Assembly (NCBI GenBank): GCA_911728435.2
Contig: OU452203.1
Coordinates: 18,125,651-18,189,650 of the forward strand
Direction: 5' to 3'
DNA: 64,000 nt
From: Apoderus coryli
Taxonomy: Eukaryota > Arthropoda > Insecta > Coleoptera > Attelabidae
A program made the position numbers and the translations under genes. A model generated the notes under the pieces. That model worked only from the letters and a program-made list of their open reading frames with translations. It was not told the DNA's origin and made no database searches. Below, piece after piece: positions 16,243-48,309 of this stretch. The first letter of the stretch is position 1. Each line of letters begins with the position of its first letter.

Positions 16243-19200
16243 TTAAGCTGTATTTGTTGCACCAGAACTACTTGGTACACGAGTAGCGCCTGTGACGACA
16301 CTATCTGTATTTTTTTTCGACCAACAATACCTATAAAAAATATATTAAACTTAACTAAACTATTAGAAACTTTATAGTATTAGTATTTTTCAATTGATCA
16401 TTTTTTTTAGATTCTCCTACAAATCTTACCTCTTCTGTAACAGCCGCCAAATCTTCTTTTTGAAAACAAATATAAAGAATATAAAAACTCCATAGATGGC
16501 ATTACAAAAATCTGTCAAATACCACACGTAATTCGGTATTTTATTGCCCAGCATCCACATAACTGCCCAGGAAATTATTTCCATACTCCAATTCACTCCC
16601 ATGGCAACTAATAACTTCAAATATAAGTTGAACCTAAGGATAACAAAATACGCAATTATTATATTCCGACTAATCAGCAACGATTTTACGTTAAAATGTC
16701 GGTACCATCCAAAGGACAGATTTTCTTTGGTTGGATCGTTATCCTCACATGAATCAAATATGTCGTCACGAAATGTGCGTATATACGACGTCCATAGATG
16801 CTGTAATTAACTTTGACGTGACCGTCATTTACAAACTTCTGGACGGACAAGGGATGTGTTATTTTCTGTTTGACTGTTGGATAATTCACTTCAAAAACGT
16901 ATGAAGAAGTTGGAAACGTCCGATCTGATTTTCGGTTCAATTCATGAGACATATGAATTGACAATGCAGGTGGAAGTAGAAGTTAATTTTAAACATCAAA
17001 AAGAATTGTGAAAATGGGATTTAAAATTCTCGTGATTCAACATCAAACAACTCATGAAATTTGTTATAGATACTGGTACTTTAAATGCAATTAAAAATGT
17101 CCCAAATCTTGGTTGTGATTCTGAAACTAACCGCCAATCAATGTATTGAAACGTCATGTCAAGATATCTACGACGCCTTCTATCTGTTTCCTCCTGCCAA
17201 TAAAGCTGCATTTAGGGGAACAAGTCTTCAGTCTGTTGAAGCTGTGAAAAGAAAAGCGTCATGGGTCATGAAAAGAAGACTTTCGACTCTGTTATGGACA
17301 TTTGCATGGAGCTTCAACTAAATATGTACCACATTTAAAAGAAAATATTTTTAGAATCATCGTTATTGTATTATTATTGATGTAAGTGAACAGGAATGCT
17401 TACTTTTGCTTATCTTTTTCGTAAGAATGTCGTTTGCTGTCATTATGTTTCAACATTGATGTTTCTTCTTTCACTTTTTTGATCTTGTATGCCGTCAAAG
17501 AAAACAGAAGTATATTGATTGCAATGATAATTGCTACCAATCCATAAAAGTATAGTAAAGTTGGTATTCCATCTGAAATTACATGAAATATAGTGTTAAT
17601 TGTTTCAAAAAATTGTCTTAACGTCTTTACCTTCGAGGAAACATTTTGATACTCCAACCCCAGGATAGTAAGCTGCATTTGGATTCCCATACTCATTTAT
17701 TAAAATCACTATCAGTATATCCAAGAATGACATTCCCCAAGCATATCCACAGTAGATTAGCAGTCTTCGACGTTCTGAAGCTTTTTGGCTGCCGATAAAT
17801 CCTCGACTACCACTGAAACAAGAAAATTTGAAGATATGTTATAGGAAGACACTCCTATGGACGTATGAAAAGTTATTTTATTAATATTGTTACCTAAATG
17901 TGAACCAAATATCAATGCAAATGACATTCATCCAAAAAAATGATACCATAAAGAAGAATACTGTTGAAAAACCTGTAAGAAAAACTCAAAGATTGAGTTA
18001 TAAGTGATATTTTCATCTACTCGTAGCGTCATACGTACCTATGGCTTTACAGGTGACTATATCGAATTCTGGATTGGATAATTGAACTGTAGTTAAGAGT
18101 ACGTAAGCCATAAATAAATTGAATACGTAAAACATCAACGCTTTTTGATGTAAATTTCTGTCTGGTAAGGCGGCATAAACCAAAAATGTTGCTAAGAGGA
18201 ATGGCATTGAGATTATCATCCCTGGAACAAAATAAGTTTGACGTTAATACGTTCCCATCTACGTTTAGTACCTAATACTATCTATAGCTCTTAGGAAATC
18301 ATCTTATACTTAGTTATTCTATGATTATTTCATTAATGTAAGAACAAATATCCATTTTGTATCTATTTCCAGGTTTTTGTTTCGAGGTATTAAAACTTCA
18401 ATTATTTTTCACATCCTTTTCGTTACAAAATTTTTGAGTGCTCAAGATTCCTATTTCCTCAGCGTGTTTTGGTTTTAGTGAGCGTCTCACTCAACTAATT
18501 TCAAATAGGATTAAAGAAGAAAAGGGTGACATTAGCCAGAATGATTGTTAGTTTGCCCATGTACATGTAAATATAACGCTTGTGTTCCCGAATATCCCAA
18601 GTTCTAATTTCGCCAATAAGGAGGTGTATAAGAGCTTGTATTGAAATTATAAACAACACGCTCTAAATTGTGTTTTAAAGAGAGCACCGTTGAGAAAAAT
18701 GTTACCATGTACTGGAAATGTTATGGCAACAGGTTTTCGGGAATATTTCTTTTAGTCGACTTTCTTCAGAAAGGTAAAAACAATTCATTCTGAATACTGC
18801 TGTAACCTTCTGAATCAGTTGGATGCAAAAATACGTGAAAAGAGCTGGTCTGCCGCTCAAAAATCAATCAAGATAATGTAACTGGTTAGAAAATACACAC
18901 AACCATAGCAAAAACCACCGAATTAAAATAAGAATTATCCATTCCCCCTACTCGCCAAATTATGAGCCCATAAAAGCAGTACGTACATTCGTCTGACGAA
19001 GCTTAAAAACGTCTTATAAAGACACATCATGGTGTCGTTCTGCTCATCCACAGAACATTCTACAAATTAGAGGAAATACCTATACAGGTTTTGGATTATC
19101 TTTTAACTAAATTTTACCATAAACTTCTTATCAGATAACATCCATGTTTAGTCGTATTTTCATTCAAATGTGTTTTCAAAATTCTAAATTTAATTAGAGT

Positions 19201-19799
19201 TTTGGTTGTCTACAAATCTGAATAAAAAACATACCGATAACATTAAACTCTCTGCCAGCCACTCTCATACTATAATCATTCATAGTCTTATTTTCCAGCA
19301 CTTTTTTATAGCACAAATAAGCTTTAGCAACATCTTCATCCAAACAATACTCATCGTTTGTGTAAAACATTTTAAAAGCCGGCATCCATAACGATCCATT
19401 TTCCTGGATGTAAAATAGATCTGCATCATTTCCTCTACTATTCAATTGAAAAATTGAACAATTCACTAAACCAATAACGAACTTGTTTGGTGGCGAAATT
19501 TCACGCAAAAACACAGTTTTGTTTTGATACAGTTGTACAGAAAACAACTCAGTGGTATTGTTGCTATTAATTCTTGTACATATTTTACCCGGATTTAAAC
19601 TATAACCGAATTTACAACACTTTCTAATACACTTGCTTGGTTTTTCACAATCTGTACAAACTTGGGTTCGATTACTTTGATAACTACTTTTATTATCTAC
19701 TGATATCTCACAAAAGTCCTCTACAACTGTGGAGAAAACAATATTATTTCTAAGTAATAAAAAAGTTATAAGAATAAAGAAATTATTCCAACTTCGCAT
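16243..19799 (-). CDS. Methuselah-like secretin-family GPCR (complete; ectodomain cassette A)
   Basis: Seven exons on the minus strand: 19799-19235, 18221-18039, 17972-17894, 17812-17631, 17572-17404, 16633-16430, 16330-16243 (1,470 nt, 489 residues). Exon 1 holds a signal peptide, then the Methuselah cysteine pattern with CIRKCC, several N-x-S/T sites and NDEYCLDEDV, ending ..NVIG before TM1. TM1 (MIISMPFLLATFLVY) and TM2 are in exon 2, TM3 in exon 3, TM4 in exon 4, TM5 in exon 5, TM6 (LYLKLLVAMGVNWSMEI) and TM7 in exon 6. Exon 7 is a short Ser/Thr tail. Exon 6 reaches a stop if unspliced (..LLQKR*), but AG|gtaaga and a matching acceptor at 16330 support the last intron. Members act in stress response and ageing in flies; the ligand here is unknown. 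The 7TM part seems to be shared by five more ectodomain exons upstream. Confidence 0.88.
16634..17403 (-). other. Intron with unrecognised open stretches
   Basis: This 770-bp intron between the TM5 and TM6 exons holds two open minus-strand stretches (near 16686-16964 and 16996-17211). They match no family I know and would break the receptor frame. They may be eroded TE sequence. Confidence 0.4.
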
Positions 19800-20528
19800 G
19801 GTTAATTTAAAAAGAAAAGAATTCTACAAGTTGCTCCGTTTGCTTGTATATCTACGAAGCGACAACTTGTTTATTATAGGATCATTAGTGGAATAAAAAT
19901 ATTACGCTTTTGTCATCTTTTAATAATAATATTAATAAAAGAATGCAATTATGGATCAGAAAAGAAAACAAATAAAAAAGTTGACAAACGATTCTCGTCG
20001 ATTATTAACGACTATCCCAGTTGGGGGTGAGTAAATTAAAATGATGGTGTTTTAATTGACAAATGATTATGTTGTGTGAGGGTATATTATTAGTTTGCAG
20101 AACAGGGCACCCTTGAATTTTTTAAATTTATTTATTGAAATGTGTTTTATATGAATAGGTAGGTGAAGAGACTGAAAAATTATCTTTTAATTTATTTTCA
20201 CTTAACAAATTATCAGCTTCTATCTAGAATGTTATTTTATCGCGAAAGTGTAAAAACAAACACAACATATTGATAAATATTTCGTAAATATTTTGTCACA
20301 TCAATATCCTATCGGGTGGGAAACGAATGCAGCATTTATAAGTTCATTACCTTGTATCTTTAATTTTCTATACAGGGTATTAATTGGTGAAGTATTGACA
20401 ATTTCTAAATGACCTTGGTTTACTTTTGCAGATTTCCAATTTTCTTTTGATAAAGTCAACCAGAACATATTGTGGCTTCCTTAGATATGTTTAGGTATAT
20501 TTAATTCATATTTATCTTTAAGAAAACA
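19800..20528. other. Spacer upstream of cassette A
   Basis: AT-rich. It presumably contains the cassette A promoter; a TATAATAA word lies on the minus strand near 19875. Nothing else is recognised. Confidence 0.4.
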
Positions 20529-21112
20529 AAAAGTTTATCATAATGGTCAGTTTTCGACGGTCTCAGATTCTATTATTGTTTGCCACAGGGTTCAATTCTG
20601 GGGCCTCTATTATTTTTAATTTATACCTCATAAATTTTGAGTTCGTAGCATACAAGCCTTTGCAGATGATACGTAGGTTTATTACTCTATTAAAACAAAT
20701 TATTGTTTGAAGCCTGCCAGAGAGTCAATGCTGACCTTGATATTCTATACAGACGGTCCCATGTTGGACGTTTTTGATGGAAACCCAGAATTTTTGTGGA
20801 ATTGAACTGTAGTTAAGACTACGTAAGTCATAAATAAATTGAATTCGTAAAACATCAACGCTTTTTGATATAAATTTCTGTCTGGGAACGCGGAGTAAAC
20901 CAAAAATGTTGCTAAGAGGAATGGCAGTGAGATTATCATCCCTGGAACAAAATAAGTTTGCCGTGAATACGTTCCCATCTACGTTTAATAGCTAATAAAG
21001 TTTATCGTAATGGTCAGTTTTCGACGGTCTCCGATTCTATTATTGTGTGCCACGGGGTTCAATTCTGGGGCCTCTGTTATTTTTGATTTTATTACCTCAT
21101 AAATTTTGACAA
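20529..21112. pseudogene. Copied receptor exon 2 between two copies of a LINE reverse-transcriptase fragment
   Basis: Bases 20799-20997 repeat, on the minus strand, most of receptor exon 2 plus part of the upstream intron (source 18079-18275), at roughly nine bases in ten. The copy lacks the 3' part of the exon and its donor. On both sides (20529-20640 and 20998-21110) are direct copies of a plus-strand RT fragment containing PQGSILGPLLFLIY. The exon copy cannot code for a working TM segment in a transcript, because its end runs into unrelated sequence. See findings. Confidence 0.75.
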
Positions 21113-21531
21113 ATGATTGTGCTAACTTCGCGTTTTTAGTTGTCGAATAAATATCTATATTTGTTCAAATTGGTGAAATTGGGTGCAAACATGGGCGTAG
21201 GAGTTTGGGTAAATATTGCACCGAGGAAGAGGTAAAGAGACAGATTTTTGGGTGATTTTTTTTCATTTGACTGGATATAAACAATTCGTTGATTTTAGCC
21301 ATAGGCCATAGCAACGTCTGCATATTAAGACCCTTAAAATGTGTAGAAATGGTTTACATAATCGCCTTATTGAACTTTTCTTCTATTCTGACAAAAAGAT
21401 GTTTTAAATTTGAAAAAGCACCGTAACGAACCAATGTTTATGAATAATATTGTAAGGAAAATAATAATCCATAATTTTACCATTTTTGAAAAATAAGTCT
21501 TCGATGTCAAAATACTTAGAATATAACTAAC
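21113..21531. other. Spacer downstream of cassette B
   Basis: No ORF recognised. It would be intron if cassette B is spliced to the shared 7TM exons. Confidence 0.4.
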
Positions 21532-22087
21532 CCATAGCATATAATAACCCATTCGGTTGTACATCCTCTCTGACACAAGCTACAGCAACCAAACTATGTT
21601 CAACATTCTCAACACAGAAATTTTGATAATCAAATTCCATCCCGCTCCAATTCAACACACCACTTTCCTTTAACTCCAAATTAGACTCCAACTTCACACT
21701 ATACACATCTTCGTCAGTACAAAATGTTGGTCGATTCGGCACCCAAATTATATGAAAAACACTTAGAGTATCAATTGGAATCACTTCACTTAAATCTGAT
21801 AATGATGGATCATACGTTTCTACACACGAAGTTGATGTTGTATTCAACGTTTCTGTATTATTACAACACCTCCTCAGGCAGTTAGTCACTTGGCAGATAC
21901 AACCACGTATTGTATTTTCTTCATAGAAATAGTCATTTTGGGTGTATGTGATATTGTTTTTAGTGATATTTGTGCCTGATTTAATCCCGTCGCTGATATC
22001 AATATTAATATCACACTGAATAGTACTAGATGTAGTTTTTTGTGATAATAAGAGTATCACAAGAACTACAACAAATTTGCAGATCAT
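21532..22087 (-). CDS. Methuselah-like ectodomain exon, cassette B
   Basis: ATG at 22087, a signal peptide (MICKFVVVLVILLL), then a Methuselah-type ectodomain of about 185 residues. It has NCLRRCC in place of IRKCC, FCTDEDVYS, and a closing YQNFCVEN...VAVACVRE pair, with several N-glycosylation sites. It ends ..YAMG with donor G|gttagt in phase 1, the same phase and the same Gly as cassette A. No TM helix is encoded, so alone it would be a secreted stub. Joined to the shared exons at 18221 onward, the total is 486 residues in frame. Between it and those exons lies only a broken exon 2 copy (20799-20997) and cassette A. Confidence 0.75.
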
Positions 22088-22860
22088 TTTTACGAAATTA
22101 TACCTACTAAATTATAAAAAATTATTATTGTAAGTTTTAAAGTGTTTAGATAAGTAAAGGCTTGTCTCAGATGACTTAAAATTGTTTGAAATAGATAAGG
22201 ATTGTGATAAGAGGTTTTAGCGTGAACGCTAATAAATACTAGGAATGACTGTATGTACGGTTATGCTGATGGTATTTTGTTTTTCTCATTGAGTAAATAT
22301 GGTGAGTTTTGTATAAATAGTCGTTATGTAAATTATGGAGATTTTACTAATAAGTTATGCATGTTTTTAGTTTATTATACAATAGAACTATCATGACGAG
22401 TCGTTGCTCGTAATTTTCATTGAGATAATGTCAATAAAATGTTTATGATTTGACTATAAAAAAATGAAACTAATGCTGTAAATAATTGTAGTTTGATTCA
22501 TTCAATTTCATTTTATTTTTGAAAGACACAAATAAAACAACGTCTACTCCACCAAACTATTCACATATTAGTATGCAATCAGCCTGCAGCGCCAGACATG
22601 TTTCGGAAAACTAAGTTTCCATCATCAGTGGCTCATAATAAAACAGTCACGCAGTCATTTTAGTTAAAGTCAAAAACAGTATCATACGTTGCTTTATTTG
22701 TGTCTTACACAATCAACTCCTCTCGAAGATGGACTACTTCAGAAAATATTTTATTTTTGAGTATTTAATTAAAAATTCTCAATTAAGCTAATACCTTTAA
22801 AACAATAAAAAAAGTTGATTTTCTATGTTTTTATTCTTCATCTTCCGCTGCTATCCATTA
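22088..22860. other. Spacer with repeat-like words
   Basis: No gene. The words GACATGTTTCGGAAA and CATCATCAGTGGCT (about 22597-22635) resemble a motif common in insect dispersed repeats; a similar pair recurs near 47540-47570. Confidence 0.4.
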
Positions 22861-24780
22861 ATGGATGTTTGTGATCACTTCTGACCATTTTTTCTTATCT
22901 CTGGTGGTGTGAATTAATTCTCCTGTGGTTCCTATTCCTGTCCAATGCTTGATGTTTCGGAGCCACGACATCCTCTTTCTGCCTACACCCCTTCTTCCAT
23001 GGGACTTTCAGGATTCTTCGATAGATCCACATTTCAAATGCTTCTAGCCTATTCATTGTGCTAACCTTCACTGTCCAGCCTTCCATACCATACAACAGTA
23101 CGGACCATACATAACACTTTGTGAATCTTATTCTGAGATTGAGGTCAAAGTCGGAGTTCGTAAAGACGTTTTTGAATCTCATGAATGAGCTCCTCGCTTT
23201 TTCTATCCTGTACCTGATTTCTGCATCTGAAGACCAGTCTTCACATATCCAAGTCCCCATATAGTTAAACTTTTTAACTCGTTCTATGTCTTCACTATCG
23301 TATGTAAGTTCCGCATTCCGGAACTCATCCAATTTGCGGCTGATTACTAGGAATTTTGTCTTTTTTATGTTGATGTTGATTCCGATGCGTCGGCCGTGCA
23401 TTCCAACCATGTCCAGGAGTCTTTGGAGGTCATTCATATTGTCTGCTATCAGGACTGTGTCGTCTGCATACCGTATATTGTTGATCCATGTGCCAGACCA
23501 GTCTTCACATATCCAAGTCCCCATATAGTTAAACTTTTTAACTCGTTCTATGTCTTCACTATCGTATGTAAGTTCCGCATTCCGGAACTCATCCAATTTG
23601 CGGCCGATTACAAGGAATTTTGTCTTTTTTATGTTGATGTTGATTCCCATTCGTCGGCCGTGCATTCCAACCATGTCCAGGAGTCTTTGGAGGTCATTCA
23701 TATTGTCTGCTATCAGGACTGTGTCGTCTGCATACCGTATATTGTTGATCCATGTGCCATTTACTTTGATGCCTAATTGTTGTCCTTCGAGAGCTTCCTG
23801 GAAGATATTTTCCGAGTAAATGTTAAACAGAAGTGGGGAGAGGACACATCCCTGTCTTACACCTCTGCTTTTGTAACTTCGCTGTCAGATCTAACTGCCG
23901 CTGATTGGTTCCAGTACAAGCTTTCAATACAGCGTATGTCCTTTTGATCTATGTCAATTCGCCTCAGCATTTGAACGAGTTTGTGATGTTACACTCTATC
24001 AAATGCTTTTTCGTAATCTATGAAACACATCGCTACATCTTTTCTCTGATCATAACAGTTCTGAACCAACACTTGGGTTGCGACCAGTGCCTCTCTTGTA
24101 CCGAGACCCCTTCTAAATCCGAATTGAGAGGATCCAACAGCGCTTTCGCATTTCGTGGAAATTCTGTAGTGAATGACCTTCAGAAACACTTTCAGAGTGT
24201 GGCTCATCAAGCTGATCAATCTGTGATCTTCACATCTTGTTGCGTTGCTCTTCTTTGGGAGTGGAATAAAAAGAGATGTAAGCCATTTGGTTGGGAATTT
24301 TCCTGTGTTGTAAATTTGGTTGAAAAGTCTTTGTAGCCTCTTAATACTTTCGTTGTCTAGTAATTTGAGCAGTTCAACAGACACTAAATCTGGTCCAACC
24401 GTTTTCTTATCTTTCGAGCTTTTTATTGCCCTAGTAATCTCTTCTATTGTAATTGACGGTCCAGACAGGTCATCTTCCTGATTATCTTCTAACTGAGGTC
24501 TATCATCTGCAAAAAGATTACTAATATATTGTTTCCAAATAGCTTTTCTCTGTCCGTTATCTTGTGCCATTTGTCCTTGTTCATTTTGTATATTAGAGAA
24601 AGTCCGTTTCCTGTACATTCCAGCTGTTTCTTTTATTTTCTTGTGCAGGTTATACTCATCGTGCTGTTCTTGCAAGTGTTCCATTTCTTCGCACTGTTCC
24701 TTCAGCCACTTATTTTTTGCCGCTCTTACTGCTCTTCTTATGGTATTTTGCAGCAGTTTTTATTACGTTGAATTTATTCC
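22861..24780 (-). mobile_element. 5'-truncated non-LTR retrotransposon with internal tandem duplication
   Basis: Reverse-transcriptase pieces on the minus strand: fingers and early palm at 24756-23989 (VGPDLVSVELLKLLDN, SQFGFRRGLGTREAL, CFIDYEKAFDRV), then after a break the YADD block and thumb at 23701-22895, ending in a TE-typical C-terminus (WLRNIKHW). At least two frameshifts separate the parts. A 264-bp in-frame tandem duplication (23232-23495 and 23496-23759) repeats the region from just after YADD through ICEDWS. The element is related in sequence style to the copy at 33.6-35.5 kb. It is dead. Confidence 0.85.
23232..23759 (-). repeat. Two 264-bp tandem units inside LINE
   Basis: 23232-23495 and 23496-23759 are direct copies differing at only a handful of bases. 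264 is divisible by three, so the reading frame is kept. Confidence 0.92.
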
Positions 24781-25899: not shown

Positions 25900-27890
25900 C
25901 TTTGTTAATTCAAACTATACTGTGTGATCAAAATTAACGGAGATATTACAATATTCGAAAAATACAGTTTGTCAATATAAATACAATACTTGCAAATACA
26001 ACACAAATACAAATCACATAAAAATATATACGACAATATACAACAATTAGAACAATACTGCACAACAAAACAACGCAATATTGCCAACAAGAATCAAGAA
26101 CTCTACAACCAATCACTCTCAAGAAATTCATCGACAGAGTAAAAACAGTGCTTTAACAAATATGTCTTTATTTTAGTTGTAAATAATTTGTAGTTAAACG
26201 ACCGAATCTGCTTCGGTACCTTATTATAAAATTTGTAATTAAGAGAGTTATTTTGAGATTTTGTTAGTCTATATTTTGGAATGATCAACAAATCAGCCGA
26301 CCGAGTACTGTAGGTTTGATTACTAGAGTGAGGCCGCAGTGAATCCCGAATTGAATGGATCTCCAATAAGGTATGATAGATAAAAATACACGGCAATGAC
26401 ATTATACCGTGGTTTACAAAATGCGGCTTGTAATGGTCAAGTGGCCCAACGCCAACCAGTATTCTGACCGCCCTCTTTTGCAATCTGAATATTCTCAAGG
26501 CGTGCGAAGAACCACCCCAAGGCACGATGGCGTAAGCCAAGTGTGAATGGAAAACCCCAAAGTAAGCCGTTCTAAGGACATGAAAATTTAAGTAACCGCA
26601 AGTTCTCTAAGCAAAAATAGAGCACTGGCCAACTTACGACTTAGGTGTTCGATGTGAGAGTACCAGTTAAGATTGTCATCTAAATAAACTCCAAGCACTT
26701 TGACAGTGTCACCACTATTATGGGAGAAATTAGAAGACAGCTTCAGAACATTGCACTTGTCCTCGTTAAGCCTTAACCCGTTCGCACCAAACCATTTCTT
26801 GGCTGAATTCAAGACCGAAAGGGATATAGTGTTCAGATTGTCAAAACTTGAACTACTCGACACAAAACTGGCATCATCTGCAAAAAGGGACGGAAATGAG
26901 ATATCTGACATATAATAGGAGATATCATTAATGTACATAATGAAAAGTAATGGGCCAAGCACAAAGCCCTGAGGCACCCCATAGCTCACCCTTTTAAGAA
27001 AAGATGTTTCACCGATGAACTCGACCAACTGCTGTCTCTCAAACAGGAAAGATTTAATCAACCCCAAAGGTATCCCCCTCACTCCATAGAAAGACAGCTT
27101 TTCCAGAAGGGTATCATGGGAAATGCAGTCAAAAGCCTTAGACAAATCAGTCGTGGTCAATACAGAGTGTTTACCATTCTCAAAAGACGCAATTACATCG
27201 CCCACAACACTCAGGATCGCTTCGGTTGTTGTTCGCCCTCTCCTAAAACCAAACTGACATGGAGAGAGTAACAAGACCTCGAGTACCTTAGAAAATATAA
27301 CAGTAATTGTAATGGGTCGATAATTATTCAAATCGTCAGCATTACCAGACTTCAGCAAAGGTATTACCTTTCCAATCTTAAAGCACTTCGGAAAACAACC
27401 CTTAAAAACATAAGTTTATTAGGTTAGTGTTCAACCCATAAATATCACAAGATGACGAATTTGTCAAACCACAGATTGTTGAATAAACTTCTGACTCGGT
27501 GGCAGGATTGAGGAAGAAACTGCAGTTTGGCATCGCAAGACCCCTCAAAAACTCAGTCGCCGAACAGTGCGAATGGGTAGGCAAACCTTCAATAATCCTC
27601 ACAGCAACCGAAGCGAAATAGTCATTAAAGTCGTCAGCAGAAATACCAGACTCAATGTGATCTCTCGATTTGCGATTGCCAATATAGTTCACCAAACGGC
27701 AACCGTCTCTGGCTATATTCGCAGATCTTAAGAGATACTGGTCGCAGGCGTTCCTCTTTGCACACATCAACAAATCTTTCTTAAACTCAGCCTTCAGCAC
27801 GTTGTAAAAATCCCAGTCTTCGCGTCTTTGTGTGGATTTACACACAGCACAACAGTAGATAAAATTGATCTCTTGCTTTCTAGCTCTGCA
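25900..27890 (-). mobile_element. Jockey-like LINE, 5'-truncated and frameshifted
   Basis: Three minus-strand blocks: pre-RT linker and early fingers 27890-27402; RT core 27358-26588 with CQFGFRRGRTTTEAI, LSKAFDCISHDTLLEK, GVPQGFVLGPLLFIMYIND and catalytic FADDASF; and C-terminal domain 26540-26103 (YAIVPWGG, RLQKRAVRIL). Frameshifts separate the blocks, so it is not functional. The 3' border is not sharp. Confidence 0.88.
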
Positions 27891-32446: not shown

Positions 32447-32873
32447 CGATAAAATTATTTATTGCAATCCCGGCATCCACATAAAACGCACAAAAAATCA
32501 CACTCCAAACCTCATCGGTATTCACATAATCTACACAATAGTCACTGTAATGCCTGTACAACGTATAATTTCCATTCACAAGTTCTAAATCGCCATTTTC
32601 AAGTATTTCATAACTATCATACATTCCAGGATATATCCATACAGCACCCATATTTTCTGGATCACTACATTCATTCCCATAAAGAAATTGAAAAGTGAAG
32701 TTACTGTACTCTGCAGTAAAACTTTCCAGAAAGTTGTTTTTGGAGCTTGGGATGCAAGTACCGTTAATAAAGTCCTTGTTTTTTGAACAGCATTTTCGCA
32801 CAAAGTTTTGAGAATTAACGGAATTTATTACGAACGCTACCGTTAATAAAATGATCGGTACTTGTAGGCACAT
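32447..32873 (-). CDS. Methuselah-like ectodomain exon, cassette C
   Basis: ATG at 32873, a signal peptide (MCLQVPIILLTVAFV), then the shortest ectodomain of the set (about 142 residues). It has NFVRKCCSKNKDFINGTC near its start and YSDYCVDY..VIFCAF near its end, the core Methuselah cysteines. It closes ..NNFIG with donor G|gtaaga in phase 1. It encodes no membrane span. With the shared 7TM exons the total is 443 residues in frame. On the right is a spacer and then LINE debris; on the left, TE remains and no 7TM exon until cassettes B and A. A lone exon kept open with all key cysteines argues against a simple relic. Confidence 0.72.
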
Positions 32874-33599: not shown

Positions 33600-35555
33600 A
33601 TTAACCCGGCTCACGGAGCACAGAGTCACCTTCTCTGTCGCTCACGTGGGTAATTCTAACCTGGCGCGTCCACGTCGCGGGGGTGGGCATCTACCACTTC
33701 AGTAGGCCGGAGTGAATAGATGGCTAAGTTCAGGTTGGGACCCAGTTCTGTGGGGTATAACACAGACCCCTTGCCCAGGGTTACGGGTGAAGCCCACAAT
33801 GGCAGAAAGGCGGAGAAGCAGAGCTTCGGAACGGTGGATCTGGCAGAAGTGGCACCCACGATTTTAGGGCTAGTATAAAATCAACCAGCACCTGATGAAA
33901 GGCAGCAGTTTCATCAGTACCAAGGCATGGCGTAGAAAGATAAACTTTCTCAAAACGGTGTGTAACTTGGACGCGAAAAGCGCAGCTGAAACAGCCTTAC
34001 CGGTTTTCGCACTGCGGTGTAGAAAGGAAACGGAACTCCTACTACACTATACTACTTCCAAATCATCCAAATGACTAGTACGAACAGAACCACGGCCCTC
34101 AGTCCGGGGCACCCCTTAGGTGCGAAGAATCCCCCCGTCAAACATAATCAATCCCCCCGTCAAACATAATCAAATACCAAATATCCTCCTGAAATTACAA
34201 AAGAAGAGATCCACCTTTGTTACTTTGCCAAAGAAGAACAAGGCATCACAATGTGACGAATACCGCATGATCAGTTTGATGTCCCACGCCTTGAAGATAT
34301 TCTTGCGGATCATTCATAACCGCATATATAAAAAGTGTGAGTCCGTAATTGATCGCTCGCAATTTGGCTTTAGGAATGGAACGGGTACCCGAGAGGCTCT
34401 TTTCTCTTTGAATGTGCTAACTCAGAGATGTAGGGACATGAACGTCGCTGTATTCGCGTGCTTTATTGATTATAAAAAAGCTTTTGATTGTGTGTCACAT
34501 CAAAAAATGATCAACATCCTAAAATCAACCGGGATCGATGCTCAAGATCTAAAGATCATTACTGAACTTTATTGGCACCAAACAGCAACAGTCAAAATCG
34601 AAGGGTCCACATCAGAAGAAATAGCAATAAGAAGGGGCGTGCGACAGGGTTGTGTACTGTCCCCACTACTGTTTAATCTCTACTCTGAGGCAATATTCAT
34701 CGAAGCTCTCGAAAATTCAACTGCAGGCATAAAGATCAATGGAATCAATATAAGTAACCTTCGATACGCAGATGATACCGTCGTAATAGCCAGCAGTATA
34801 ACAGAACTTCAATCCCTTATGTACCTTATTGTGGAGTATAGTGAGAACTTTGGGCTTTATATGAATACATCCAAGACCAAACTGATGGTATTCTCAAAAT
34901 CACCAAGACCCGTTACTCTAATGATCAACGGAGAGCACATTACACAAGTGTCATCTATAAAATACTTGGGGGTACTCGTCAGCCAGCAATGCGACTCAAA
35001 TACCGAAATTAGATCAAGAATTGCGCAAGCACGGAAAATTCTGAATAACATGAGGACACTTCTGGCAAACCGAGACCTCAGCCTGGACCTCCGGATTAGA
35101 TTACTTCGCTGCTACATCTTCCCTGTCCTTCTATACGGATGTGAGAGCTGGACCATTGATGCAACCACAGAAAAGAGAATAGATGCGTGCGAAATGTACG
35201 CCTACAGACGAATGCTGCGAGTTTCTTGGACGGCACATAAGAGAAACATAGAGGTTATGCAGCAAATGGGTAAACACAAAGAACTCCTCACGACAATCAA
35301 GGAGAGAAAGCTGCAGTACCTAGGACATATCATGAGAGGCGAACGATATGAGATTCTCCGCCTGATAATAGAGGGAAAGATCGAAGGAAAACGGACAGTC
35401 GGCCGTAGACAAAATTCATGGCTGAGGGACTTACGTAGATGGTTCGGACAGACGTCCATAGAAATTTTCAGAGCTGCGGTTTCCCGCACAACAATAGCCA
35501 TTTGGATCGCCAACCTTCGTAGGGAGACGTCGTCCTAAGAAGAAGAAAGAACATA
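33600..35555 (+). mobile_element. Non-LTR retrotransposon: GC-rich 5' leader joined to RT, internally deleted
   Basis: Bases 33600-34120 are a GC-rich leader unlike the neighbourhood. They join directly to a 472-codon open frame (34120-35538) coding for RT: SQFGFRNGTGTREALFS, CFIDYKKAFDCVSHQKM, RRGVRQGCVLSPLLFNLYSE, LRYADDTVV, then thumb, LLYGCESW and a C-terminal LQYLGHIMRGERYE block. The endonuclease and the first part of RT are missing, so an internal deletion lies at the join, where a 22-bp tandem word (CCCCCCGTCAAACATAATCA) sits at 34130-34171. It ends in an AAG-rich tail. The RT part is surprisingly open. Confidence 0.88.
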
Positions 35556-35839
35556 TCGGTCACTAAATTTGAAAAAATTATTTAAAGCAGTTTTTGAATT
35601 ATGGCACCCTGTATCTAGACAAGTAAGCCCGAATATAGAAACACCCTGTAGAAGCTATTACCTATATACCCCAATTGAAAATAATGTTTCATAATAAATC
35701 ATATCCAATATTTACTAAAAAGTTCTAGTAATATTAGTAGCATTTTAATGATCAGAGTATGCAGGTTGGGGTAGTAATTTCGCAAAATGTTACAAGGGCA
35801 TCTAAACTATAAGGTTATAGTTTTTGAAACAGCATCAAA

Positions 35840-38730: not shown

Positions 38731-39133
38731 AAAAAGGAAGCGATATTTTAAAAATAACTAGGTACTCTTCTTTGTGCTTTTTTAATAAAAAATTAAAACA
38801 GGAAAAAAAAGCGATTTAAACCAAAAATTATTGGGTTCATCCTAAGACTCCCCCAAACTCTTTCTCAAAATTCTTTTTTTAGCGTGTTCACCATACTTTC
38901 CCCTATTAAATGGTTTCTTGTTAATGAGAAAATTCCCTATTAGAATGTTCTACCTACTAAATTCAAGACGAGAAGGAATTGATATTATTTTTGATCATCA
39001 ACCTGTTTTTTTAAAACAAATATTTATCGTAAAACAGCAGTAAAACAACCCCATAATGCCATTGAAAATAGCTTAACTACTACTGACTCACCCACTTCAC
39101 GAAATCGAGGAGTCAAAGAAATAACAACCTTAC
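38731..39133. other. Spacer downstream of cassette D
   Basis: No gene; if cassette D is unspliced its frame runs on to 39024, but a donor at 39133 ends the similarity to the other cassettes. Confidence 0.4.
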
Positions 39134-39677
39134 CTACGGCATTCACATGCATCTGCTCCAAAAGACTCAGTTCAGACTCATTATAAGACACCAGAAAAAT
39201 CGCACGAACATCTCCATTATCCATTGAAACTAAATCTAAGCAATATTCGTCTTTCGTATACAAATATAACTCATCATCCTCACTACTTCCACTGGAATAA
39301 ATGTTTTCACCCAATAAGTCTCCATTAAACTGGAGATAGGCTTTATTTATTATTGGAATTACCCGATTTTCTTTGGTATGAATTATTTCGAAGTTATTTG
39401 CTCCTAACATTTCTGAAGTTGACACTGTTGCAAGTAACTTCGTGCTATTGTAAATTTCAAATATCAGTTCATACTTCGTTAAATTATCATTTTTTGTACA
39501 AATTTCATTCACAAATAATTCCTGGTCAGCGCAGCACTTGACAATAGAGAATTTATCAGAAATAATCGTTGAATTTATCAATACATTGTAATTATTGTCT
39601 TCTTTTTTAAAATAATTTGAGGATTTTGTTAAAATCATTGTATTTAAAACAATAAACAACGATATCAGGTTTAACAT
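39134..39677 (-). CDS. Methuselah-like ectodomain exon, cassette D
   Basis: ATG at 39677, a signal peptide (MLNLISLFIVLNTMILT), then about 181 residues with FSIVKCCADQELFVNEIC and LYTKDEYCLDLV, the two hallmark Methuselah blocks. The last family cysteine is replaced: AIFLVSY stands where its sisters have a C. It ends ..NAVG with donor G|gtaagg in phase 1. Joined to the shared exons the total is 482 residues in frame. The unspliced frame continues for 37 more codons without a TM-like stretch. The nearest neighbours on both sides are LINE fragments. The lost cysteine may mean early decay or a changed disulphide. Confidence 0.7.
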
Positions 39678-39879
39678 GATGTGGTTAGTTTTTCTACTAA
39701 AAGTAATTTTGTGTAAGAGCCTCTCTTATTATTCAAATACAAGTGGCACGAGTATTATGCAAATATAAATGTGATTAATGGCTTGGATAAGTTCTTATAC
39801 TGGGTGAAAAATAGGAGTAACACATCATGTGGTGTAATATGGCAATTACACGTTTTGGAAAAACTCTAAATTTGTGTGT

Positions 39880-40980
39880 GGTTTTTCTCCTTATCAGAGG
39901 TCATCAGTTTCCTGTCATTTTTAATATTTATAGATGACCTGATCAAGGTCATTGGTGTCTCTAGGCTTGCATTTGCAGACGATCTTAAATTATTCGCTGT
40001 GGTGGATTCTTTGAGTGATTGCGAAGCGTTGCAAGAGAATTTGATTATCGTGAATGACTGGTGTGGAATAAATTATCGTTAAATGTCTCCAAATGTTGCG
40101 TATCAACGTTTCATAGAATTAAGAACCCAATTCTCTTTCAATATAAGATAAATATCGATGCACTTAAGCGCGTATCCGAAGTCACTGATTTGGTTGTTGT
40201 CTTCGATACCAAATTCACATTTGCACCACATTATTCCTCTAGAGCGCTTGGTTTTGTGTTGCGGAATGGTGGAGACTTTGGTGTATCCACTTTGAAACTC
40301 CTCTATTATGCATTTGTTCGCAGCAGATTGGAGTTTGCTTCATTAATTTGGAATCCTATGTACGATTGCTATGTTGGAGATTTAGAGTCTGTGCAGAGGC
40401 GATTTCTAAAGTACTTGGCTTATAGAGAGGATTACATTTATCCTGCAAGGGGTTCAAGTCATCAAGACTTATTAAACAGATACGGTATGCGTTCTCTTAG
40501 TCTACGCAGAGATATAAACTCCGTTAAGTTTTTTATAATTTAATTCACAACACAACAGACTGTGAGTTTTTGCTGTCAATGTTGGATTTTCAAATTGCGC
40601 GTCCTGGAGCCAGGAGTAGTCCTACTTTCAGATTGAGCACGCCCAACTCTAATGTTCTTAGTCAAAGTCCAGTTTTTTATATGTGTAATTGTTATAATTC
40701 AGTTTCTAGTAGTTCTGAAGCTGATCTGTTCAGTGATTCCATTGGACAAATAATCCAAATATTTAATGCTTAGTTTTTATTTTTGTCTGTGATTTAAGAA
40801 TATTGATTTCCTCTTTCTTCTCTTTTAAGAGAATTCTTAATTTTCTTAAATTTAATTTATTTTTAATTAAAGTATCTTATTACTTAGTTTTAGGTATTAT
40901 TTTGAATATATTTATAATTTTTGTTTCCTGTTAGTGGGCAAATGGCCTGTTGGATGAATAAATATTATTATTATTATTTG
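39880..40980 (+). mobile_element. 3' fragment of a LINE
   Basis: Plus-strand pieces: IDDLIKVIGVSRLAFADDLK (39930-40020, catalytic FADD), then after a frameshift 40061-40543 (FAPHYSSRALGFVLRNG, SRLEFASLIWNP, ESVQRRFLKYL) and 40570-40773. It ends in a TTATTATTATT tail near 40975. Confidence 0.85.
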
Positions 40981-41598
40981 GGAGAGACGATATGCCAATT
41001 CTAGAGTAGAGACAAATTAAAAATCTTGAAAGTGTAGGTATTTGTGGAAGAACCTTTTTGTTTCTTTCATTTTTCAATTTATTCAAGAAACCTATTTTTT
41101 TTTAATGAAGAAGATGGATTCATCTTGAAGAAGAATAATTAATTTTGTGGAGCAGTCGTAATTTTATTGATTGATAATCATCGCTACTCTTCAAGATGGA
41201 CTGCTTTATTAAAGAAAAATAATTTTGTGGCATAGCGAACAAAATTATTAAGATATAAGTACCTACTCCAAAAAAATTTACTTTAACTTCGAAATACTCG
41301 TATATTTCTCTATCACCCTGTTGAACTCTGTCGCATTACATTCATTAACTAATAGAATCCACCTCTAGTTGGTGTGATGTGATTTTATCTACATGCCATG
41401 AGAATACGAGGATGGGATGAAAAGTTTCCAGCAATGACCATACAATTGTTGGGGTACTTGGCTGGAAGCTGCAATTTATTAAGCAGATAATTGTTGTGAT
41501 TTGGAATAGTAGGTTTATACACAAAATCACCAAAAAAAAGCAAATGCAAATGCCGTACAATTTTTTTTATCTCTACTCTCTATTAGTTTTAAGATATA
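40981..41598. other. Spacer
   Basis: No gene seen between the LINE tail and the mariner element. Confidence 0.4.
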
Positions 41599-42826
41599 CG
41601 AGGCACGTATTTTTAGTAAGTACCGTTTTGCGATTCCGCCGCCGCAGCGCTACGGTCGGCGTTCCGCGCATGCGCGCTGGTTACCTAAATCTCTTGTCTA
41701 CGCACTGACGCCATTACAGTCTGATTCCTCATTGTATACGTTGTTTACTGAGTGTTTAAGATGCCTCCGACAATCGTGAGTCCCGCCGATTGTGAAGTAC
41801 GGGTTGTTATACGATTTCTTAGTGCTAAAGGCGTAAAACCGATCGATATTCATCGTGAGATCTGTGAAGTTTACGGACAAAACATTATGAGTGATGGAAT
41901 GGTAAGGAAATGGGTGAGAGCATTTAAAGATGGCCGCACAAATGTGTATGATGAAGAACGGAGTGGGCGTCCTTCGGTCGTTAATGAAGATTTGGTGCAG
42001 AAAGTGGAGGAAAAGGTGAGAGAAAACAGACGCTTTACAATTTCATCAATGTGCGACTGCTTTCCTCAATATTCTCGTAGTGTTTTGTATCGCATTGTGA
42101 CCGAGAACTTGAATTACCGGAAATTGTGTTCACGTTGGGTTCCAAAAATGTTGACGGATTTGCACAAAACCCAACGTTTAGGCAGTGCATTGACTTTCCT
42201 TGAGCGGTACCACAATGAAGGTGAAGATTTTTTGGACCTAATTGTTACTGGTGACGAAACATGGGTGGCCTACGTCACACCAGTTTTTTGGGACAGAAAA
42301 GGAGTATTGCTATTGGAGTTTCTGCCTCGTAATGAGACAATCAATGCAGCGTCTTATTGTGAGATATTGCACAATCTGCGTTGTGCAATCCAGAACAAAA
42401 GTAAGGGTATCGTTTTGCTGCATGACAATGCCCGTCCACATGTGGCCAATCGGACCAAAGATCTCATCAAATCTTTTAAATGGGAAACTCTAGATCATCG
42501 ATCATCCTCCATACAGCCCTGATGTGGCGCCCAGCAACTACCATTTGTTCCTGCACTTGAAGAAAGACCTGGGTGGTCAGCGTCTTTAAGACGATAACGA
42601 AGTCAAAACATTTGTGATACAGTGGTTAACAAGTCAGGCGGCAGAATTTTATGAGGAGGATATTCAAAAACTGGTGCCACGTTATGACAAGTGCCTCAAT
42701 ATTCACGGAAATTATGTAGAAAAGTAGATTAAGGTACAGGCTTTCATGTAAAAATAAAATTATTGCGATATCTTTGCACGTCTTTTTTTAATTCCAAAAA
42801 GGTACTTACTTAAAAAACATGCCTCG
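41599..42826 (+). mobile_element. Mariner element, inactivated
   Basis: The TIRs of about 28 bp begin CGAGGCA and share GTAAGTACC; TA flanks both ends (41597-41598 and 42827-42828). Length 1,228 bp. It contains a broken transposase (41761 onward). Confidence 0.9.
41761..42723 (+). pseudogene. Mariner transposase pseudogene
   Basis: The N-terminal HTH region (MPPTIVSPADCEVRVVIRFL..) and paired-like domain are intact. The first Asp (VTGDETWV) and second (LLHDNARPH) are present. Against the family pattern, roughly 30 residues between the first Asp and the FWDRKG block are missing. A small insertion (repeated ATCATCGATC words near 42495) shifts the frame before the third block. There the expected final Asp reads Asn (APSNYHLF), and a premature TAA follows. 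The protein is inactive by several independent defects. Confidence 0.88.
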
Positions 42827-42828
42827 TA

Positions 42829-43396
42829 CAATCTGTGTCGTCATAAAAATAATAATAATAAACCAATGAACAATAAAATATCAAACGATAGTTGACATCC
42901 ACAACATTAATACATGTCAAAAAGAACACATAACACGTTAAAAATAAATAATTACAATAAAAACAAGAAATCACGAATACACTACAATGAGGATATGAAT
43001 TCATTGAGGCTGTAAAAAGCGTTACTCGTTAAAAATTTCCTCAATGATCTTTTAAAAATATTCTCCGATTGGCAACTCCTCAAGGCTGAAGGAAGCAAAT
43101 CAAAATTAAAAATTACAAACTAAAATTCAATAAAGGGTAGTTCAAAAGAAAAAAAAAATTGCTCGCAATATCGACAACATACTACGATATTTTATAATTT
43201 GTTTATAAAAAATCTTTCATGATTCGCAGGATTTTGACAACAGCAGTGAGATTCTCATCAAATTTGAGCTTAAGGCGTAGAGGTTAAGATTCCACTTATG
43301 CCCACTTTCAAACATCGTCTACATCTGACTAGGGGAGGGCATCACGCCAGTCCGACACTATCTATTTAATTTGAAATTGACACAAAACACACTTAC
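42829..43396. other. Spacer downstream of cassette E
   Basis: No gene recognised. Confidence 0.4.
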
Positions 43397-43877
43397 CAAT
43401 ATAATTCGAATGAATTCCCAACTCTTCTTCCATACAAAGCACTGCACCCAAAAAGCACTCATCAATAACCAAACCCGTATTGTTAGACTCTTTATAACAA
43501 AGTGTCTCCAAACAAAACTTGCGATTAGTAAAACTTTTACCAGAACTATATTCAAACTCTTTTAAAATGAAAAACTCATCAACAGTAAAATTAGTCATTA
43601 ACACTGGTTCCTTTCCTCTTCCGCAAAGTTGATCGGTATTAGGAAATTTAAATTTCACTTCAGGATATTGTTTACGAACATCAAATACCATGAATTCGCT
43701 GGTATATTCGCATTGTTCGTTAACGAATATCTCGAATTCTTTGCAGCATTTTCGAAGAAAACAGTTTGCTGAAGAATTATCTTTACATGATGGTTGTTGT
43801 GAGATGTTTTGTGGTGAGGTATTTGACATATTTAAAATTAATGTACAAAAGATTGTTGCTAATATATTTTTGAACAT
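43397..43877 (-). CDS. Methuselah-like ectodomain exon, cassette E
   Basis: I place the start at 43877 (MFKNILATIFCTLIL), which gives a proper signal peptide; an in-frame ATG 13 codons upstream would put charged residues in front. The ectodomain is about 160 residues, with NCFLRKCCKEFEIFVNEQC, RKFCLETLCYKE and ECFLGAVLCMEEE, so it has an extra cysteine pair over its sisters. It ends ..SNYIG with donor G|gtaagt in phase 1. Joined to the shared 7TM exons the total is 461 residues in frame. No membrane span lies in the exon or in the sequence left of it before cassette D. Confidence 0.72.
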
Positions 43878-44149
43878 TTTAATATCTACTGTTATATTTT
43901 TAAGGTGGATAATCAAACTGAAAGTGATTTTAATCTTTGAATAATTATTGTATAAGAGATGCTAAAATTAGTTTTCTACTGTAAGTCGAATGTGAGTTAC
44001 TATTATGAAGATTTGGTTTTAAAACCGGAGTCGTTACAATTAATTGTTATTATTTCAGTTTATTGTTAATATAGTAGAATTAGTTATTTTTGTTTTGATA
44101 AAATTTGTGGTTTTCGTAGGAATACATTAGTAGTAATTCGTAATGATAA
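43878..44149. other. Spacer upstream of cassette E
   Basis: No gene. It should contain the cassette E promoter; a TCAGTTT initiator-like word lies on the minus strand about 40 bases above the ATG. Confidence 0.35.
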
Positions 44150-45090
44150 GATTTTTTTTATATTACGTGAGTAGGACTAAAAGTTAATGCTATAATACAT
44201 ATCTCAAGAGGACAGATGGTTTGACAAAACTCGATTTTATTATTCAACATAGTTGCCTCCAAGGGCAATACAACGCTGAAAAAAAAAGGAATAATTTTTC
44301 CAAGGGCTGGTGGGGAAATAATAGCGGTATATTTCAAATCCTCAAAGCTCCTACCACTAGCTAAAAACCTGAGTGTACTCGATAATCGTTCGTGTGGTGT
44401 TATGGCTCTTCTCATCCTCGTGTCTTGACGTTCTATTTGTGGTGTTATTAAATGGAACAATTCCAGCTTGGTATTTTCATCCATTCTCAGATAATTTCTG
44501 TAATCGTCCGGTTCTAATTTCACTTTATTTATTAAATTAACATGCGAGAATGTATCACGTTTGGATAACCACGATTTTTTTCCATACTTTCAACTGCAAG
44601 AACGACAGCGGTTGCAATCACACACATTTATTCGACGTTCATTTTTCGCACAGGTCCCACCAACTGACGCACCTCGACGTTTACCTGATTAATGTGTCGC
44701 CACAATTCGTTGCGCGCGGACTTGCCCGCATGTGTATAGGCCGCTTAAGGGATTGTTCTCTGGCCAAACACTCCTCTGAAGCATCAATTCGTTGTCGATT
44801 TTGGTCGACTGTGAGCTCACGCGGCACCCACTTTGCACAGAGCTTTCGCAGACCCAAATGCTCGTGCACCTTCAATTTGCGATCGTTCATCACCAATTTC
44901 TGAATTTTGTTGACATTTTCTGAAATAAAAGCCTCATTTGGGTGTCCACTGCGCTCTGCATCATTTGGGCTGGTTCCACCACGTTTAAATTCAGCAATCC
45001 ACTCCATTTGTCTCGATGGTTCAGAGCTCGGATAATGTTTATCAAGCCATTGTTTGGTTTCCACTGTATTTTTTTCAAAAAGAAGAAGAA
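44150..45090 (-). mobile_element. Mariner remnant with nested Harbinger-like fragment
   Basis: Mariner N-terminal part on the minus strand at 45064 to about 44757 (HYPSSEPSRQMEWIAEFKR, DAERSGHPNEA, LGLRKLCAKWVPRELT). The mariner C-terminus (RCIALGGNYVE) lies at about 44283-44240, its TE end near 44155. Between them (about 44284-44756) sits unrelated sequence ending in a Harbinger nuclease N-terminal frame (44523-44287). The catalytic mariner core is gone. Confidence 0.75.
44287..44523 (-). pseudogene. Harbinger (HARBI1-like) transposase N-terminal fragment
   Basis: DDYRNYLRMDENT, RRAITPHERLSSTLRFLASG and RSFEDLKYTAIISPPALGKI are the standard N-terminal block of PIF/Harbinger nucleases. The frame then leaves the family at the junction with mariner 3' sequence; the DDE nuclease half is absent. 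Confidence 0.8.
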
Positions 45091-46937
45091 ATTTAATATT
45101 GGGGCAAAATTAAAATAGACAAAACATTAACCAAAAGTCAAATTAATATTTATATAGTTTCTATTTTATTTCTTGAATAATCTAGGAACAGAAAAAATGG
45201 ACATTAAGTAGGTAGTAGGTATTTAAACGAAAAATCACTTATTGTTAACTGTGAAATTCAATGTGGAGTTGCTTAATCATGACTTTGTACTAGATTCGAT
45301 AGCCCCTTCGATGACTCGCTTTCATTAGCCAACTGCTGATCAGCAGTCAAGTCAGAAAACTTGAGGATGCACTACTCCTGTTGGCGAAACGTCAATAACA
45401 ATTTATACAAAACAAGCGCTTAATAAACGAAGAAACTACAATTCTTTACTAAACAGCCAGGAAAGTCGTACAGAATTTATCAAAATCAATGATGATATCT
45501 AATGAAAGAAACAACTTCACAAAAATATCAGAAATTTCGTTTTTATGGACATTTTTAAATTTCAAGAAAGAGATACAAAACATTTTTCACTTTTTATAAT
45601 ACACCTGATATAAACACGCAACATTAACAAATTTACACTACCCCTTTGCTCCAAATCAATCAATTTTTGAAAAAACAAAACACATCCGATCGTCCTCGTG
45701 TATCCATGTCTAAGCCAGAACCCCTGTGCTTTCTCACTCTACTTTCTTTTATATGGCTATCCTGTATATTCTTACGGTGCTAAATTGTATTAAAAAATAT
45801 TATTATTATATTACTTCAATGGATTAAAGAAGGCAAAACTATTAATCAACATTTCTCTATCTTGAGCTTCATGATCAACAATGTGCCTACTTATTTTGCA
45901 TTTTATCTCAAGGTCAAATTTCAAATTTCCTTTAAAAGTACAAGAAGTCCCCGTCAAACTGGTGAAAGACAAAGTAGATCGCACCATGAAGAAGTTCACT
46001 TCCCGCACTGTTCCTACAGAACACAATGGACGATTCATATAGAGCATGCCATAATTTCGAATTATTTTATAGCCTCACCTAGTAGTACACATAAACCTAT
46101 TTACATTTCTTTTTTTGATATCATATAGAAAACGGCAAGATAAGTCGATACAAATTATTATCTCGAAAGTAGTTGGTTCTTGAAATTAAAACCTCCGGGA
46201 TAAAACCGGAAAAATCCTAGGAAAACCGTTCAATAAATACCTAAATAAACTAACCCTAAACCATTTAAAAACTGTACTTCTGGTAAATGGAGACAAATAT
46301 CATATTGCAACTAAGGAACGTGCGAACAAATATTACAAAACAATATTGTTAATACTTGAAAAACTTTGGTCGACTATTAAATCAAATGATTTTAGCTAAA
46401 CTTAAGATGTATAGTAATTTACTAATTCCCTTTACACAGTATGGATGTAGGTATGTATGTTTATATAAAACTTGTAAAGAAAACAGTGATTATTAAACCA
46501 AAATATTTGAGTTATCGACGGATATAATCCTTGTTAAAGGTAGATTTATTGTTAATAAACATCACTTTCATCTCTTTTTACTGATTTTGCTTTTAAAATA
46601 ATGTTAAAATTCCTTTCAATACCGATTAAAACTGTTACATGCTGCAATTTCTAACTACGTACTTGAAAATTTAAATATGCGATATAATTGTTCATTTCAA
46701 AAAAGGTGTTTTAATTCCATCTCCTCTTAAAAATTTAAAATAAACATGTATATGCAATTTCAAAAAACCTTTCTAAATAGCTGTCATGGATTTTCCTAAG
46801 ACGGGAGACCTGAATCGCTGCTTTTGTTTTTGAAGTATATTTTAAATAAATTATAAACCATTGTGGAACTATTAAAACAAGTCTACTCATTACCCATGTT
46901 TTGCATGACAAAACATCAATTAATGTAAGTTACTTAC
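45091..46937. other. Long spacer downstream of cassette F
   Basis: No family recognised. A 78-codon minus-strand frame at 45811-46047 has balanced codon use but matches nothing I know. The stretch 45340-45430 (CTGTTGGCGAAACGTC) looks like a dispersed repeat. Confidence 0.4.
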
Positions 46938-48309
46938 CAAAAGAATTCAACTTCAATTCGTCCTTATCCTCGATGTGTTCATTCGGGATACAAACCAACG
47001 CTGTAAATGTAGTCCTATTACCTTTACGTCCAATAAACGTGTCCAAACAATATTCATCCATAGTTCTATATTGTCCAAAATTAACATTATCGTAATTTGG
47101 TAAAAAGAGTCGTCCATCAATTTGTAGATAAAACTCATCAGCTTGGTTACGATCCGGGTCTAATTTTAATCGTCTAGAATCGGTTTTGCATATAAGATTT
47201 GCTGTCGTAACAAAAATTGTTGTACCATTACTGTTTGTAATATTCGGTATTACAGATTTGTTGTTATAAAATTGTGGTGAAAAATCTATATCATAATTTA
47301 GGATGCATCGCTTTTTGGCTAAGAAGTAGACCGCGTTTTCTGGACAACATTTTCGTACAAGCATAATATCTTCAGATATATTGATAGAATCTGGAAACAC
47401 AGAAAGTGTTTTCAAGAAATTAATTATAATAATATATAATTGATACTTGAAGATAAACAAATTTTAATTGTAAATAAAACGACGTCAGCTCGACAAAATA
47501 TTCGTACATTATGTTCAGATCATCTAAATTGTGTCAGATATGTTTCAAGACTAAAGGTCTCATCATTAGTGACATAGTTACAAAATATTTTCCATAAGTA
47601 TTCAAAATGTATTTATAAATTTAAACATGTATATAAACATTTTGTGTAAAATTTGTGATGTTACATTGTAACGACACCAATGTGAATTTTGAGAAAAATC
47701 TATTTTCAAAAATACTTATTTTTATGATCAATTAAAAGAAAAATATATCATAAAATTAGTCAACGGTTTGTTGGCTTTTATCGATGTTAAGCTAGAATTG
47801 ACACAGTTGAAATGGTAAGGATGTCATTGACAACTCTGTGATTACATTTAAATCAAAAAATATTTTTTCAATAAAATGGTAAGTTGAACGTTAAATTTAC
47901 ATATCAATAAAAAATGATCTAAAAACTGGGGTGTGTTTCCCAGACTTCAATGGAATTTTTGACCGGAATATTTTGTTTGTTTTAGCGTTAAGTTTGTTCG
48001 ATTGTTGACTTGCTAGTATTTTATTATTTTTAAAAATGATAATTTTATAATAATAATAATAATAGTACAATTTTATAATATAGTAGTTGTATCATCCAAG
48101 TTTTGAATACAAAATTTAATATGATTATAAATAATAATTATATTTTGAAGTACGTATTAGAAACTTTAAGACGACAAGGAAACATACTTACCGTTTTTAA
48201 CTACATCTAACTTGTAAAACATATAATTGTTTTCATTAATACTGTACGAAAATTGTATTACACAAATTAACACTATAATAATTAGGTCACTATTGAACAA
48301 TAAAAACAT
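46938..48309 (-). CDS. Methuselah-like ectodomain, cassette F (two exons)
   Basis: Exon 48309-48192 holds the ATG and a signal peptide (LIIIVLICVIQFSYS) and ends in phase 1 (AAC G|gtaag). Exon 47390-46938 follows a clear acceptor (gtttccag) and joins in frame. The ectodomain has IMLVRKCCPENAVYF, RTMDEYCLDTFIG and TALVCIPNE, and ends ..LNSFG with donor G|gtaagt in phase 1, as in the other five cassettes. With the shared 7TM exons the protein would be 491 residues. It alone among the six has the signal peptide on a separate exon. It is the most upstream cassette, about 29 kb from the 7TM exons, and only 1.4 kb from the 3' end of Prp8, which is on the same strand. Confidence 0.74.

Follow-up and report, generated by a model that had tools for sequence, protein, structure and literature searches.

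A Methuselah-type receptor gene of the beetle Apoderus coryli with six candidate alternative ectodomain heads on one predicted seven-transmembrane core

Introduction

Clustered protocadherins and UGT1A have variable first exons with their own promoters, which are spliced to constant exons; in the protocadherins, the membrane helix, too, is encoded by the variable exon. Insect gustatory receptor genes combine unique N-terminal exons with shared C-terminal exons, up to the 30 variants given for TcasGr214 in the available part of PMC6720082. Here we describe a locus of this kind in Apoderus coryli (Coleoptera, Attelabidae), found in a stretch of 64 kb (assembly GCA_911728435.2, contig OU452203.1, positions 18,125,651 to 18,189,650 of the forward strand; hereafter the window). 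The locus lies on the minus strand from approximately 48.3 to 12.9 kb and very probably represents one Methuselah (Mth) 2-type gene, with six alternative extracellular N-terminal parts (heads A to F), one constant set of five exons for a seven-transmembrane (7TM) core, and two alternative last exons. All exon coordinates are window positions.

The window gene resembles the gustatory receptor genes, as far as these are covered in the accessible text (beetles included), in that tandem alternative N-terminal exons stand ahead of one or more shared C-terminal exons. Gustatory receptors, however, are not class B receptors, and the variable part of the window gene is an extracellular domain that brings its own leader, while all seven transmembrane (TM) helices are shared. 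Protocadherins and UGT1A are unrelated proteins, and a promoter per exon has been shown for them, whereas it is an inferred feature of the window gene. A preliminary description of this DNA had compared the locus to the clustered protocadherins; the comparison holds for variable first exons on constant exons, but the layout of the insect gustatory receptors is closer.

The preliminary description also knew of no such arrangement among Methuselah receptors. This agrees with our search, which found no description of shared-core Methuselah genes in the accessible portions of the open-access literature (subscription papers, including the 2014 Tribolium Mth papers, were outside its scope); public gene models already list isoforms. 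The general kind, i.e. variable first exons and a constant region, is known, and the Methuselah case may be unstated in print; the gene models are public, and therefore the data exist already. Three Mth genes, counted by locus, are given for Tribolium in the available part of PMC3163568, and five Mth genes are cited in that of PMC5083930, in which 'splic' and 'isoform' occur 0 times; the available part of PMC4768249 mentions neither splicing nor isoforms. A Bombyx transcriptome paper (PMC3426547) was considered as a precedent and rejected: in the portion available, an alternative first exon is given for the unnamed CUFF.6110 and CUFF.6350, and Methuselah appears as new genes only.

Gene structure

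Head F comprises two exons, the first (48192-48309) with the leader and the start Met at 48309, and the second (46938-47390) with the donor G|GTAAGT. The other heads are single exons on the same strand: head E (43397-43877; donor G|GTAAGT), head D (39134-39677; G|GTAAGG), head C (32447-32873; G|GTAAGA), head B (21532-22087; G|GTTAGT) and head A (19235-19799; G|GTATGT). They are followed by the constant exons e1 (18039-18221; TM1, phase 1 to phase 1), e2 (17894-17972), e3 (17631-17812), e4 (17404-17572) and e5 (16430-16633; last TM helices, phase-2 donor), and by two alternative last exons, the short tail 1 (16243-16330; stop at 16243) and the long tail 2 (12865-13060; YYLFIGKPHLAH.., stop at 12865).

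The acceptor common to all heads lies at 18221 and reads TTGTTCCAG|GG|ATGATA. When the exons were joined from the window DNA by a script, all head lengths were 1 mod 3, and the final Gly was split as G|GT in 6/6 heads. With core and tail 1, heads A, B, C, D, E and F give 489, 486, 443, 482, 461 and 491 residues, respectively; with tail 2, spliced from the same phase-2 donor at 16430, they give 525, 522, 479, 518, 497 and 527 residues. The reading frame stays open and in phase through each of the 12 head-core-tail combinations. The exon joins thus reproduce exactly the six lengths of the preliminary description, which had used tail 1, and the minus-strand sites of its six heads, each with a start Met and a phase-1 Gly donor. 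The KCC-type and YC-type cysteine blocks that it had noted are present in all six heads when RRCC and FC/YC variants are included. A hydrophobic leader follows the start Met in 6/6 heads (by eye).

The end of the locus had been placed at 16243, a position that cannot be kept: a second last exon, at 13060-12865, had been overlooked 3 kb further on, and because of this exon the locus reaches 12865. Two kinds of C-terminal tail are found in the relatives. Tail 1 is akin to the short tail of the Cylas model P0008; the other kind, of the YYTFIGKPHLAH type, was found at 13060-12865 (tblastn E 1.5e-14) in the right phase, with TTTTTTACAG ahead of it and AATAAA past the stop, at 12839. Both tail types occur within one species in 6/21 beetle species. 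As a single donor (16430) faces two acceptors (16330 and 13060), the tail would be chosen at this point, and the second last exon therefore makes six heads times two tails possible.

Shared 7TM core

The core belongs to the class B (secretin-type) 7TM receptors (PF00002 7tm_2, E 1.9e-10, 40.8 bits against a cut-off of 20.6), and among the relatives with a name, Mth2-like or Mth-like proteins match it best. A core profile was built from 115 beetle cores of at least 270 residues and a head profile from 112 beetle heads of 110-230 residues, all from the relatives listed below and none from the window; both were run against all window frames of at least 15 codons. The core profile found each constant exon once and matched an additional TM1 exon (3e-19); of the two tails, it missed tail 1 and matched tail 2 weakly (5e-5). 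Overlooked 7TM exons for each head, which in the preliminary description would have spoken against a common core, were looked for in the window with this profile and not found; tblastn together with the core profile gave no recognisable core for heads B-F within the 64 kb, and only the TM1 copy appeared. One full 7TM set is present, as had been described; the additional, truncated TM1 exon at 20997-20800 had gone unnoticed. In the profile scans of the window, tandem variable exons stand before a single constant exon set.

Alternative heads

The head profile picked exactly the six heads in the window, with E values from 2e-30 to 3e-8 (3e-26 for the second exon of head F, 2e-14 for head D and 3e-8 for head E), and the next best match was at 0.5. 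In the flanks of the window (20 kb upstream, 10 kb downstream), it found no further head. The Pfam family Methuselah_N matched heads A and B over the cut-off and head F under it, and gave no match for heads C, D and E; a genome search with Methuselah_N matched only head B and missed head A, and hence is an insensitive test for stray heads. The predicted fold of head C matches the Methuselah ectodomain fold; the quality of the model for head E was too poor for a reading of its fold. When the head A ectodomain was compared by sequence with solved structures, just two Piwi chains were obtained (E 0.036 and 0.3), which were judged chance matches, and a search with the head B region returned the query itself as sole match.

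The other window heads are 22-27% identical to head A. In a tree of heads, the clades of head A and head B (support 0.94 and 0.946) include weevils, longhorns and leaf beetles, head C groups with two bark/ambrosia beetles (0.911), and head E with weevil and darkling-beetle heads (0.80-0.895). Heads A and B thus recur in other families of beetles, as do C and E on weaker support, and for this reason they look maintained rather than decaying.

Beetle and other insect relatives

The counts for relatives rest on the best 120 of 309 matches of a protein search. Of these, 102 proteins were counted, from 21 beetle species with at least two entries each; the 18 left out comprise 12 one-entry species, three Dendroctonus entries with an incomplete species name, and three entries without organism. 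Beetle models named Mth2, Mth2-like or Mth-like 10 (Cylas formicarius, Tribolium, Diabrotica, Onthophagus) have the same head type and the same Gly|Met-Ile-Ile-Ser junction as the window gene, and the Cylas core is 73% identical to the window core. The same layout, which the preliminary description had suggested looking for in related species, was found, with different heads ahead of an identical core and the same Gly-Met at the junction. Within species, the heads are distinct in 102/102 listed proteins, three of which are short models with heads of 76-101 residues; over 247 pairs, identity has a median of 27% and a maximum of 64%. The residue preceding the core is Gly in all but one Cylas model, which has Cys, and 86 of the 102 proteins bear 'isoform' in their name. 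The number of listed heads varies among the beetle species.

One letter-for-letter identical core is common to all listed proteins in 16/21 species. In Anoplophora, 7/9 cores are alike, one is without a 14-residue insert before e5, and one belongs to another gene; in Euwallacea similis, 3/4 are alike and the fourth has a 7-residue insert, which is also the sole difference between the two cores of E. fornicatus; in Acanthoscelides, 3/3 agree over the first 240 core residues and one model deviates near the C-terminal end. The incompletely named Dendroctonus cores equal that of D. ponderosae over 240 residues (3/3) and over 270 residues (the one of three compared). The firefly has one core in 5/5 models. 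A separate search for longer proteins gave 12 heads for the scarab Onthophagus taurus, with a median pairwise identity of 28%; in 11 of the 12, the first 230 core residues are the same, and the twelfth is without a 34-residue insert before e5. Firefly, scarab and many Cucujiformia together we take to represent much of the suborder Polyphaga, and to judge by their models the design spans this range. Four Dastarcus 'Mth-like 2-x' entries have one core, and the available text of PMC5083930 reports an Mth-like2 of 450 residues cloned by rapid amplification of cDNA ends (RACE), the same length as the Dastarcus model P0073.

The optional inserts before e5, of 14 residues in Anoplophora, 34 in Onthophagus and 7 in two Euwallacea (P0017, P0130, P0101 and P0112), fall in the expected third cytoplasmic loop. 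No such insert was recognised by eye in the e4-e5 intron of the window.

Among Hymenoptera, the Mth2 models of Athalia, Lasioglossum and Nasonia likewise combine an identical 3' part with 5' parts that differ; in contrast to the window gene, the identical part begins one or two exons later. The Athalia models P0158 and P0173 have 263 residues in common and the Lasioglossum models P0165 and P0166 have 281, in both cases from approximately the e1/e2 boundary; the Nasonia models P0156 and P0168 have 240 in common from approximately the e2/e3 boundary (boundaries by eye; P0168 has 899 residues and may be a fusion). A Dufourea pair differs at the N-terminus only and then has 468 residues in common. 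Pairs from Odontomachus and Ischnura were rejected as shared-core cases, as they look like separate genes. These few cases suggest repeated partial 5' duplications ahead of one kept 3' end.

Paralogs in the same genome

When the 428 Mb assembly that contains the window was searched with the core, two further Mth 7TM exon sets were obtained, on C12 at 7.68 Mb and on C5 at 18.75 Mb; C21 and C20 each gave one isolated match of lower strength (E 1.5e-5 and 2.1e-5, respectively). Around the two sets, 80 kb (C12) and 90 kb (C5) were examined, with 60 kb and 44 kb, respectively, scanned upstream of the heads. As far as scanned, the paralog on C12 (7675892-7690142) has one head, apparently of two exons like head F, and the paralog on C5 (18733793-18771631) has one single-exon head. 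The C12 head was found in two pieces (profile positions 41-77 and 70-172), which were taken as two exons of one head; both heads end in a phase-1 Gly like the window heads. Single-head paralogs, within the range scanned, thus coexist with the predicted six-head locus and act as an internal control.

Proposed mode of expression and alternatives

The proposal that different ligand-binding heads are placed on one signalling core, made in the preliminary description, is supported by the identical cores of the relatives, the single-head paralogs and the maintained head lineages, and we consider it very probable that the six heads use the shared core. Transcription would start at one head, and the donor of that head would be joined to the acceptor at 18221; the intervening heads would be skipped, since first exons carry no acceptor, so that a start at head E would bypass D to A. 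The choice of promoter would set the ligand-binding head on the common core, and the choice of last exon the cytoplasmic tail. One promoter for each head is probable.

Several observations weigh against one gene with six alternative heads. Donor B (GTTAGT) is weaker than the other five donors, and heads D and F, to which no lineage could be assigned, are without resolved counterpart in the head tree. The relatives are known here from their protein models, and 'isoform X4' and similar labels name models only. Ignelater has two different cores, which either adds to these points or represents two genes. Acceptor-like sites do exist ahead of heads A-E, although only at the level of chance (their scores are reached by 13-32% of random windows), and since the acceptor matrix is weak (eight sites; leave-one-out scores from -2.3 to 10.0), a common non-coding leader spliced to each head is conceivable. 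Finally, the TM1 copy documents partial duplication and decay at the locus.

The chance-level sites would also suit a shared core with one promoter and a common 5' leader exon upstream of all heads, of which one would be picked by mutually exclusive splicing. This we consider unlikely: in the 150 bp ahead of the heads, the weak matrix gave no acceptor score beyond the 95% level of the background (0/6 heads), and every head begins with a start Met and leader of its own, as likewise seems to hold for the relatives' heads examined.

The truncated TM1 exon copy (20800-20997, minus strand, with its own acceptor at 20941) matches 18277-18080 at 93.4% over 198 bp, intron side included, and ends abruptly within the exon. 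The copy and its source differ in 9/46 codons, seven times with a change of amino acid, and the helix of the copy contains a charged residue (V to E). It is flanked by near-identical repeat pieces (21109-20997 and 20640-20530; 92%), and the TM1 exon was found in two copies in a DNA search of the genome, both in the window. The copy is far younger than the heads, because it is 93% identical to its source as opposed to the 22-27% of the other heads to head A, and, to judge by its sequence, it arose recently by partial duplication and is decaying. Its acceptor is intact, and it is therefore a possible decoy for heads B-F. By eye, the repeat pieces that flank it resemble reverse transcriptase remains.

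Some distal heads could yield soluble or single-pass proteins, through read-through of the donor or through the TM1 copy at 20941, which retains CAG|GGATGATA; head B joined to this copy would give a head, TM1 and a short end, and then a stop. The amino-acid-altering codon changes (7/9) give no sign of constraint on the copy, however, and the charge lies inside its helix, so that such products are improbable.

Alternatively, the locus could descend from complete receptor genes in tandem, five of which lost their 7TM set to mobile elements and persist as orphan heads. Such a history would account for a truncated, amino-acid-altered TM1 copy with acceptor and near-identical repeats between heads B and A, and for the reverse transcriptase- and transposase-like frames seen by eye in the gaps between heads, but is very improbable, TM1 copy aside, because there is a single complete core and no other core relic in the 64 kb (beetle core profile), the relatives' cores are identical, lineages A and B are old, the copy is far younger than the heads, and six heads are open with intact phase-1 donors, some with single-core counterparts in other families.

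Implications

There is little agreement on the ligands of Methuselah-type receptors, a family associated with ageing and stress. If one gene with six alternative heads and a shared core is correct, these beetles represent natural head swaps on an identical core, and because of this, ligand specificity would be directly testable with one reporter. Counts of Mth genes by locus would understate the receptors of beetles, if each head makes one, and RNA interference against the core would presumably hit all heads together. The balance tilts slightly towards a broader interpretation, with up to 12 receptors in which old head lineages serve as separate ligand sensors on one core; the head would set sensing and the tail signalling, the design would be kept across polyphagan beetles, and in sawflies, bees and wasps it would recur, its junction shifted inwards by one or two introns.

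Other features of the window

Long frames resembling transposase are located at 14233-15351 and 41752-42522, and long frames resembling reverse transcriptase at 22895-24759, 26103-27890 and 34120-35538 (all by eye from translations). A plus-strand frame at 9750-10172 resembles, from its translation only, what we take to be the C-terminal part of a mitochondrial AAA protease (AFG3-like).

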